A stretch of 61,831 bases of DNA, taken from NCBI GenBank assembly GCA_026394075.1, contig JAPKYX010000285.1, positions 1-61,831 of the forward strand. The letters are read 5' to 3'. Made by a program: the position numbers and the translations under genes. The DNA comes from Acidobacteriota bacterium (lineage in GTDB: Bacteria; Acidobacteriota; Terriglobia; Bryobacterales; Bryobacteraceae). Shown in pieces: positions 44,153 through 60,747 of the stretch. The notes under the pieces were generated by a model. The model made no database searches. It worked only from the letters and a program-made list of their open reading frames with translations, and had not been told where the DNA came from. Position 1 is the first letter of the stretch. Each line of letters opens with the position of its first letter.

Positions 44153-45838
44153 ATGAGCTTTCGCCAATTGTTTTGCCTAGCTGCCCTTCCGATGACCCTC
44201 GCCAGTGCCCAGGAGCGCACCCAGGCCCGCAGCGTCGTCATGACCAGCCACGGCATTGTGGCCACTTCGCAGACGCTGGCCTCGCAAGCGGGGGCGCAAG
44301 TACTGGCTCGCGGAGGCTCAGCCGTGGATGCGGCCATTGCCGCAAACGCCATGTTGGGCTTGGTGGAGCCCATGATGGACGGCATTGGCGGCGACCTGTT
44401 CGTGATCTACTACGAGGCCAAGACGGGCAAGCTTTACGGCTACAACGGCAGCGGCCGCGCCGGACGCAATGTGTCGATTGCCGCGTTGAAGGCCAAGGGC
44501 TTGTTCAGTATGCCCACCAAGGGCATCCACACGGTGACGGTTCCTGGAGCGGTGGAAGGTTGGGATCAGCTGCACAAGAAGTTCGGCAAACTGCCCTGGC
44601 GGGACCTGCTGCAACCCGCCATTTATCACGCCAAGAATGGCTTTCCGGTGACCGAGATCATCCAGTACGACTGGGAGGCCGGCACCTCCGCGCTGCGCAG
44701 TGACGACAACGGCCGCCGTGTTTTCCTGAACGCTCAAGGCCGCGCGCCGCAGCCGGGTGAGGTCTTCAAGAATCCTGAACTCGCCAAGGCGTATGGCATT
44801 CTGGCCGACGGCGGCGCGGCCGCCTACTACAAAGGGCCGATCGCGCAGGCCATTCTGCAAACCTCGAAGCGCCTGGGTGGGCTACTGACGGCGGAAGATC
44901 TGGCCACCCATCAAGGCGAGTGGGTGGAGCCGATCTCCACCACCTACCGCGGCTGGAAAGTGTTTGAGCTGCCACCCAACGGGCAGGGCATTGGCGCATT
45001 GCAGATGCTGAACTTGTTTGAAAAATTCGATCTGCCGTCGATGGACCCGCTTTCGGCGAAGGCTCTCCACCTGAAGATCGAGGCCCAAAAGCTGGCCTAT
45101 CAGGATCTGCGCCAGTATGTGGGCGATCCCCGGTTTGTGAAGGTGCCGGTGGCGGGGATGCTCGACAAGGGCTATGCCCAGGAGCGGTCCGAGCTGATCT
45201 CGCGCGAGCGGGCCAATTGTGAAACGTCGCCCGGCATGCCTCCGGCCAAGGGCTCAGGCAATACCATCTATCTGTCGGTGGTCGACCGGGAGGGCAACAT
45301 CGCTTCCTGGATCCAGTCCATCTCGGACCTGTGGGGCTCCTACGTCGTGGTCGATGGCATGGGGTTCACGCTGCATGACCGGGGCGGCGGCTTCTTGTTT
45401 GACGAATCGCAGGCCAATTCGCTGGCACCGGGCAAGCGGCCTTTCCACACCATCATTCCGGGCTTCATGCAAAAGGGAACGCAATCGATCGGCTTCGGCA
45501 TCATGCGCGGGTTGAACCAAAGCCAGGCGCATGCCCAGTTTGTCTCTTATGTGGTGGACCATGGCGCGAACATTCAGATGGCGCTGGAAGGGGCGCGCTT
45601 CACGCGCCGGTCTTACCAGGGCTGCGAGGTGTTGATCGAGAATCGCGTGCCTGCAGCTGAGCTGGACCAGTTGCGCGCGTTGGGGCACAATATCGATTTG
45701 CGCGGTGCCTATTCCGGCCAGATGGGCGGCGGTCAAGCGGTGATGTTTGATTCGGCCACCGGCGTCAAGTTCGGCGCCTCAAGCCCGCGCAAAGATGGCG
45801 CGGCCATTCCCGAGCCAGTTCCGTATTGGCCAAAATAG
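44153..45838 (+). CDS. ggt: gamma-glutamyltransferase family protein
   Basis: 561 residues with a signal peptide (about 1-19). It matches the GGT precursor: GGSAVDAAIAANAMLGLVEPMMDGIGGDLFVIYYEAKTGKLYGYNGSGRA, GAVEGWDQLHKKFGKLPWRDLLQPAI, and the autoprocessing site at Thr371 (GNTIYLSVVDREGN). In the best-known enzymes the site reads NTTHYSVVD; here the second Thr and the His are replaced by Ile and Tyr, so processing or substrate may differ. The family transfers or hydrolyses gamma-glutamyl groups of glutathione in the periplasm. Only 8 bases separate it from the AhpD-like gene. Confidence 0.9.
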   Translation: MSFRQLFCLAALPMTLASAQERTQARSVVMTSHGIVATSQTLASQAGAQVLARGGSAVDAAIAANAMLGLVEPMMDGIGGDLFVIYYEAKTGKLYGYNGSGRAGRNVSIAALKAKGLFSMPTKGIHTVTVPGAVEGWDQLHKKFGKLPWRDLLQPAIYHAKNGFPVTEIIQYDWEAGTSALRSDDNGRRVFLNAQGRAPQPGEVFKNPELAKAYGILADGGAAAYYKGPIAQAILQTSKRLGGLLTAEDLATHQGEWVEPISTTYRGWKVFELPPNGQGIGALQMLNLFEKFDLPSMDPLSAKALHLKIEAQKLAYQDLRQYVGDPRFVKVPVAGMLDKGYAQERSELISRERANCETSPGMPPAKGSGNTIYLSVVDREGNIASWIQSISDLWGSYVVVDGMGFTLHDRGGGFLFDESQANSLAPGKRPFHTIIPGFMQKGTQSIGFGIMRGLNQSQAHAQFVSYVVDHGANIQMALEGARFTRRSYQGCEVLIENRVPAAELDQLRALGHNIDLRGAYSGQMGGGQAVMFDSATGVKFGASSPRKDGAAIPEPVPYWPK

Positions 45839-45846
45839 AGGTGCCG

Positions 45847-46377
45847 ATGTTTCTTCCCTCGATCGAAAAGCACCGTGGGCCGCAAGTCCCCGGCATCTGG
45901 AATCTGTTGCAGTTCAAGCCCGAGGCCACCAAGCACCTCAATGCCTACACCGAGGCGGTGATGCGCGGGCCGTCGCCCCTGTCGGCGGGACTCCGCGAGT
46001 TGATCGCGGCCTTTACCTCGCAAGGCAACCACTGCGTTTTTTGAACGGGCTGTCATGCCGCGGCCGCGGCGGAATTCCTGGGTCAGGAGTTCGTTGATCA
46101 AGTAATGGGTAGTCACGATGTGGCGGAGCCGGAACGGCTGCTGTTCGACTTTGTCGACCGTGTGAACCGCGTTCCCGCCTCGATTGACGCGTATGACGTC
46201 GAAGTCTTGAAGGCCGTCGGGTGGAGTGAAGAAGCCGTGTATGATGCTCTCACCGTTTGCGCTCTCTTCAACTACTACAATCGCTGGGTGGATGCCTCCG
46301 GCGTCGCCGACATGGGCGAAGATGGCTATCGGGCCGCCGGGAAGCGGATTGCGCAAAATGGATACGCGAAAGGGTAA
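45847..46377 (+). CDS. AhpD-like peroxidase-related protein with in-frame TGA (candidate selenoprotein)
   Basis: One continuous frame of 177 codons interrupted only by TGA at 46042-46044 (codon 66). Start ATG at 45847 with GAGGTG just upstream. Both halves match the peroxidase-related AhpD family: LSAGLRELIAAFTSQGNHC before the TGA, and DVEVLKAVGWSEEAVYDALTVCALFNYYNRWVDASG after it. Reading TGA as Sec gives NHCVFUTGCH, which fits the family's CxxCxxxH redox motif with Sec at the second Cys. A GGU-loop hairpin follows at 46072-46092. AhpD-like selenoproteins are known. The alternative, a nonsense mutation, would have to hit exactly the redox Cys. Likely co-transcribed with the preceding transferase gene. 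Confidence 0.8.
46072..46092 (+). promoter_or_regulatory. candidate bacterial SECIS hairpin
   Basis: Nine pairs (46072-46080 with 46084-46092; one G-T pair) close a GGT loop, within the coding frame. 36 bases separate the TGA from the loop. Known bacterial SECIS elements carry a G in the apical loop (GGU in E. coli fdhF) at a comparable but usually shorter distance. Confidence 0.55.
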
Positions 46378-60478: not shown

Positions 60479-60529
60479 AGGCACCTGCCCCTTCCTCGAG
60501 AGCAAAGCGAAAATTCAGCCTTGTGGGCT

Positions 60530-60715
60530 GTTCTTCAGGCAGGTCTTCGGACTTGATGGGCGGCCTACTAGTTGCCACTTCCCGGCGCCAGTTGGGGCCA
60601 GTGTGTCAATGCAACGTTCGTTCCCATTCACCGCTGCGGGACAGTCCCGGAATCTCACCGGGTTCCCTTTTTCAACGCCCCTCAGGGAGTGGCGTACCTC
60701 AAGAAGCCTTGAGAA
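60530..60715 (-). ncRNA. cobalamin riboswitch
   Basis: On the minus strand the full set of conserved elements appears in order: an initial GCCACT near 60690, GGGAA-CCCGGTGAGATTCCGGGACTGTCCC (spanning about 60637-60666), GCAGCGGTGAATGGGAACGAA, CACTGGC, GGGAAGTGGC, and the B12 box AAGTCCGAAGACCTGCCTG (60537-60555). Adenosylcobalamin binding is expected to shut off translation or transcription of the transporter genes that start at 60478. Confidence 0.95.
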
Positions 60716-60747
60716 TAGCAGATGCGGCTGGACCGCACCCGCCGGGT

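Follow-up and report, generated by a model that had tools for sequence, protein, structure and literature searches.

A gene in the window (the whole 61,831-nucleotide stretch of Bryobacteraceae DNA analysed here), seemingly broken by a stop codon, very probably encodes, uninterrupted, an antioxidant enzyme that contains selenium and belongs to a known type, and we predict with high confidence from sequence comparison that its product is a selenoprotein of the AhpD-like kind. The frame is intact apart from one TGA, the UGA column is conserved across relatives, the genome carries the selenocysteine (Sec) gene set, the region after the UGA is under selection, and the glutamate, cysteine and histidine of the active site are conserved. 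The RNA signal for Sec insertion (SECIS) lies, in nearly all other lineages, in a hairpin close to the UGA; in the window's genus it may have moved to a second hairpin further downstream.

Reading frame and predicted active site

The frame comprises 177 codons including the stop and contains, as the preliminary description had stated, a single internal TGA. Translation through this codon gives C63-V-F-U66-T-G-C-H70, such that the TGA occupies the second position of the AhpD C-x-x-C motif. In AhpD a glutamate lies 12 residues ahead of the first motif cysteine (E-x11-C), and this spacing and the residue roles are known for that enzyme; the corresponding E-x11-C-x2-C/U-x3-H pattern is present here as E51, C63, U66 and H70. 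E51, C63 and H70 are retained in all 120 homologous copies with TGA at this column, the window's copy included.

Membership of the AhpD family, claimed from the letters alone, was borne out by profile searches: the translation, with C written for U, scores 93.9 bits against NCBIfam TIGR01926 (peroxidase-related enzyme; cut-off 81.8), and Pfam CMD is matched at 41.6 bits (cut-off 23). Solved structures with the AhpD core (2pfx, 2oyo, 2prr, 6k40 and 3c1l) match the core of the protein with E-values of 2.4e-14 to 3.2e-12; in the two of these alignments that were inspected, cysteine stands at the Sec column, whereas the window gene has TGA there. NF041238 (AhpD_rel_CFYUT), an AhpD-related domain that has CxxU like the window protein, was considered and rejected as an assignment (score 42.4 bits, cut-off 175; the model is longer, at 357 positions).

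Features of the window around the predicted selenoprotein gene
Feature	Position	Strand	Remarks
Gamma-glutamyltransferase-like gene, upstream neighbour	44153..45838	+	Ends 8 bases before the ATG; named by reading its translation
AhpD-like / peroxidase-related selenoprotein gene (predicted)	45847..46377	+	176 residues, Sec at residue 66
Active-site motif C63-x-x-U66-x-x-x-H70	46033..46056	+	Together with E51 at 45997-45999
TGA, proposed Sec codon (U66)	46042..46044	+	120 of the 142 copies read have TGA here
Proximal hairpin	46056..46071	+	6 bp including a U-G pair; loop GGCC at 46062-46065, its motif altered in this genus; nearly all other lineages have their SECIS here
Distal hairpin, proposed SECIS of the window's genus	46072..46092	+	9 bp; GGU loop at 46081-46083

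In the proposed mechanism SelB and Sec-tRNA-Sec would decode the UGA as Sec, the presumed cue being a hairpin in the coding sequence just 3′ of it. The product would be a thiol-peroxidase-like enzyme of the AhpD type (TIGR01926, Pfam CMD) in which the second active-site cysteine is swapped for Sec. U66 would attack the peroxide, C63 would form a selenenylsulfide with U66, and E51 and H70 would act in a proton relay, as is known for AhpD; the substrate of the window protein, like its reductant, is presumptive.

The TGA column and the selenocysteine machinery

Homologues were drawn from genomes of the family, order and phylum. Matches were found in 129 of 200 family genomes (distant paralogues counted in), and 94 of the 200 carry a verified TGA copy; at E 1e-40, 118 of 257 genomes match in the order draw and 12 of 396 in the phylum draw, the window's genome included, and the latter contributed nine further TGA copies from other families and two Cys copies. 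The codon at the Sec/Cys column was read in 142 copies, including the window's own: 120 have TGA, 21 have Cys (18 TGC, 3 TGT) and one has Ser (TCC). TGA is thus the commonest codon, and not the plain Cys codon that the preliminary description had named as evidence against its reading, C-V-F-U-T-G-C-H; that reading is supported by this comparison together with the sel genes and the dN/dS values given below.

A tree of the copies needs six Sec/Cys changes. The tree joins the window's clade to a Cys/Ser clade through long branches, a grouping flagged as often false, and for this reason we do not take the direction of the Sec–Cys change from it. The one Ser codon belongs to L092, from a genome in four contigs (G104:C4) which has no tRNA-Sec match above the cut-off and a weak selB match (E 4.9e-58). 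L095 (G094:C37) is a distant paralogue (36% identity) with TGA at the column (CFFUHEIHG) and without a qualifying hairpin, whilst two copies from another genome (L036 and L078, G039) have Cys at the Sec column and Thr in place of the first motif Cys.

A search for the Sec genes had been proposed, their absence being taken to count against Sec; all were found in the window's genome (302 contigs, 96.9% complete). selA scores 473.6 bits (cut-off 268), selB 339.6 (cut-off 242), selD 351 (cut-off 125) and tRNA-Sec, with anticodon tca, 73.9 (cut-off 47). Both congeneric genomes have selB matches of similar strength and a tRNA-Sec match of an identical 73.9 bits. The third match above the tRNA-Sec cut-off in the window's genome (L003) is a tRNA-Ser. 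On one contig (G000:C99) lie a second tRNA-Sec (L002, 24545-24636, 64.3 bits) and a second selA (L017, 26518-27414, 356 bits), and the adjoining genes look as if they might be actinobacterial; in the congeners the next-best tRNA-Sec match reaches no more than 47.7 bits, which is also what the tRNA-Ser L003 scores, so this contig is likely a contaminant. The selD gene (L022, G000:C120) has an in-frame TGA of its own, within an AAG-U-ASKL motif. Past that TGA, at 20 bases, comes a 7-bp hairpin whose triloop is GGU; its stability is low (-5.9 kcal/mol), and downstream of it another hairpin is more stable.

Across the family draw selB exceeds its cut-off in 167 of 200 genomes. A strong selB match (best E 1e-70) is present in 84 of the 94 genomes with a TGA copy and in 82 of the 106 others (Fisher p 0.037), a definition that yields 34 weak genomes where the bit cut-off tally implies 33; the association is weak because selB occurs in most of the sampled family. 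The ten TGA-bearing genomes without a strong match are all assemblies of 270 to 1050 contigs.

Proximal and distal hairpins as candidate SECIS elements

Hairpins after the TGA were judged by limits for bacterial SECIS elements as given in the available portion of PMC13188914 (a G among the first two bases of the loop, a position within 16-37 bases, and -7.5 kcal/mol or better). A hairpin within these limits is present in 114 of the 120 TGA copies and in 2 of the 22 non-TGA copies (with a G[G/U] loop in 1 of the 22); the scan found no qualifying hairpin in six TGA copies (L095, L120, L152, L158, L159 and L162). The columns of this hairpin are fixed nearly throughout the TGA copies: six pairs enclose a loop starting 17 bases past the TGA, and a few copies have a shifted triloop at 19 bases. 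Outside the window's genus the stem is, with few exceptions, GC-rich and the loop of the G[G/U] kind. Of the 117 TGA copies from other genera, 105 can form all six of these proximal pairs; of the 22 non-TGA copies, none can. Taken singly, each pair is kept in 107-116 of the 116 distinct sequences, and three of the six positions show changes on both sides (counts of sequences, not of independent events). At the corresponding columns, pairing is seen in 8-19 of the 22 non-TGA copies.

The proximal loop in these 117 copies is mostly GGUC (66) or AGUU (38), and its third base is U or G in 116. This loop encodes residue 73, which is Val or Gly in 116 of the 117; among the 22 non-TGA copies, 14 have Ala there, five Val, two Ser and one Phe. 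The choice of residue 73 thus seems to be set by the SECIS loop. In the window's genus, represented by three sequences (L026, the window's copy; L027; L028), residue 73 is Ala and the loops are GGCC, AGCG and GGCG, respectively. The proximal stem nevertheless has -9.2 to -10.2 kcal/mol in the genus, within the loosest rule, and the probability of its inner pair is 0.35, 0.34 and 0.75 in L026, L027 and L028, compared with about 0.76 (L077), 0.32 (L031, whose best fold is the shifted triloop) and 1.0 (L113) in copies grouped outside the genus.

The hairpin to which the preliminary description had pointed, with nine pairs, a GGU loop and a distance of 36 bases from the TGA, is present as described (GAAUUCCUG-GGU-CAGGAGUUC; -9.8 kcal/mol) and lies within the published limits. 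As the SECIS of the window gene it is probably right; it is not the usual hairpin of the relatives, which sits nearer the TGA. A 9-bp GGU hairpin is found in all three sequences of the genus and in none of the 117 other TGA copies. Its seven loop-side pairs have probabilities of at least 0.85 (L026), 0.89 (L027) and 0.97 (L028) and of 0 in L077, L031 and L113; the outer two reach 0.55-0.99 in the three sequences of the genus. Folded alone, the hairpin was equalled in stability by none of 200 shuffles, whilst the 60 bases from the TGA onward, folded whole, are not unusually stable (z -1.36; 18 of 200 shuffles). Three nearby genes, with 1307 codon positions between them, have no such hairpin, and among the 1836 TGA triplets on both strands of the window only the proposed Sec codon has one. 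Random synonymous recoding of the 30 residues after the TGA (4000 trials) produced a looser SECIS-like hairpin in 62% of cases, and one with a G[G/U] loop in 48%; since such hairpins are common in this alanine-rich stretch, a hairpin on its own is weak evidence and the comparison between copies is decisive. Rfam gave no SECIS match, either in the window at the gathering score or in 46000-46200 at E up to 5.

These comparisons lead us to favour, with some reservation, a relocation of the SECIS in the window's genus: the ancestral loop, 17 bases from the UGA, would have lost its SelB motif, and the new GGU hairpin, 19 bases downstream, would have taken over and replaced it. Among the three congeners, synonymous differences fall in one of seven codons of the distal hairpin and in 57 of 156 gene-wide, too few codons to be conclusive, so that the low variation only suggests relocation; the one codon difference inside the hairpin keeps its pair (U-G to U-A), and the weak selD hairpin of the same genome shares the GGU triloop, a further point for relocation. 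A less favoured but serious account keeps the proximal hairpin as the SECIS of the selenoprotein gene and treats the 9-bp distal hairpin as an incidental feature of the coding sequence. In its favour, the proximal stem still folds in the genus, all three congeners retain its six pairs and have a G within the first two bases of the loop, and chance recoding yields a 9-bp GGU hairpin in 3.4% of trials. Against it, the third loop base, so nearly constant elsewhere, is C in all three congeners, the wobble bases of the loop differ among them, and the distal hairpin is the likelier fold in each. Congener G070 carries both hairpin types, in L027 and L077; if relocation is true, this one genome would employ the 36-base spacing in L027 alongside the 17-base spacing in L077.

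Readthrough of the UGA with a residue other than Sec (Trp or Cys, say, through a near-cognate tRNA), or the making of two separate proteins, could draw on the ATG downstream at 46105. We regard this as highly improbable given that the UGA falls at a redox residue for which Cys is the main alternative, that it is followed by a paired stem with a SECIS-like loop absent from the Cys copies, and that the genome has the Sec genes. A pseudogene or sequencing error, in which a Cys codon was mutated to a stop, would fit the two short frames left by the standard code (45826-46044 and 46105-46377) and is in effect refuted: both congeneric genomes carry the identical TGA, which makes the read error raised in the preliminary description very unlikely, the same codon recurs in most copies, and dN/dS 3′ of the TGA is 0.074, 0.099 and 0.062 in the three pairs among L026, L027 and L028, indicating that the part downstream is translated and under purifying selection.

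Genomic context and relation to known selenoproteins

The gamma-glutamyltransferase-like gene is a possible operon partner of the selenoprotein gene, and the order of the two is shared with both congeneric loci. In a search of 44 loci, most of which reach about 1.5 kb to either side, homologues of it outside the genus were found at L031 and L044 (58-60% identity). Further frames in the window that a TGA interrupts, filtered for at least 50 codons on both sides and GC3 of at least 0.68, number 18; this is not a full screen, since the filter drops the target gene itself. One of the 18 (19148, minus strand, loop GGC) has a SECIS-like hairpin, and in several a Cys lies no more than three codons from the TGA. 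With the TGA read through, five (38630, 11802, 20228 and 14050 on the plus strand and 23745 on the minus strand) gave no Pfam match at E 0.001. A Cobalamin riboswitch (Rfam, 113.5 bits) lies at 60521-60716 on the minus strand.

AhpD-like CxxU selenoproteins are a kind already catalogued, and the window gene is very probably a widespread, conserved member. In the portions of these papers available, they appear in the Sargasso Sea selenoproteome reported in 2005 (27 sequences with CXXU; PMC1088965), in a 2008 count from ocean samples as two groups of 299 and 70 sequences (PMC2398784), and in a 2026 review under TIGR01926 with CxxU (PMC13188914). Family, motif and Sec position all match the window gene (COG2128 / TIGR01926), a likeness by description in those partial sources and not by sequence; the window member differs in coming from Acidobacteria and in its apparently relocated SECIS. 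For Acidobacteria, the available parts of a 2006 survey give four selenoproteins in three families (PMC1794560), and those of a 2025 prediction paper give three known selenoprotein genes in one Acidobacteriota genome (PMC12013277). A literature search on selenoproteins in Acidobacteria and Solibacter, from which subscription journals fell largely outside and whose sources were available in part, returned nothing on the window gene in Bryobacteraceae.

The SECIS of E. coli fdhF is, according to the accessible part of PMC8659212, a small stem-loop within the coding sequence with G23 and U24 in its loop, and the commonest loops of the relatives, GGUC and AGUU, are comparable. What sets the proposed hairpin of the window's genus apart is the distance of its loop from the UGA, 36 bases, close to the 37 given as the limit (PMC13188914, in the portion available). 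A possible genus-specific relocation is the sole unusual point of the gene; a search in very general terms for relocated bacterial SECIS elements gave no SECIS title among the papers listed, and we make no claim that relocation is unpublished.

Annotations are likely to list this conserved, probable selenoenzyme as fragments or as a pseudogene. The 120 TGA copies and 22 other copies offer a natural experiment on the constraint that an RNA signal within a coding sequence places on the protein, and the same set also tests how far from the UGA SelB can reach.
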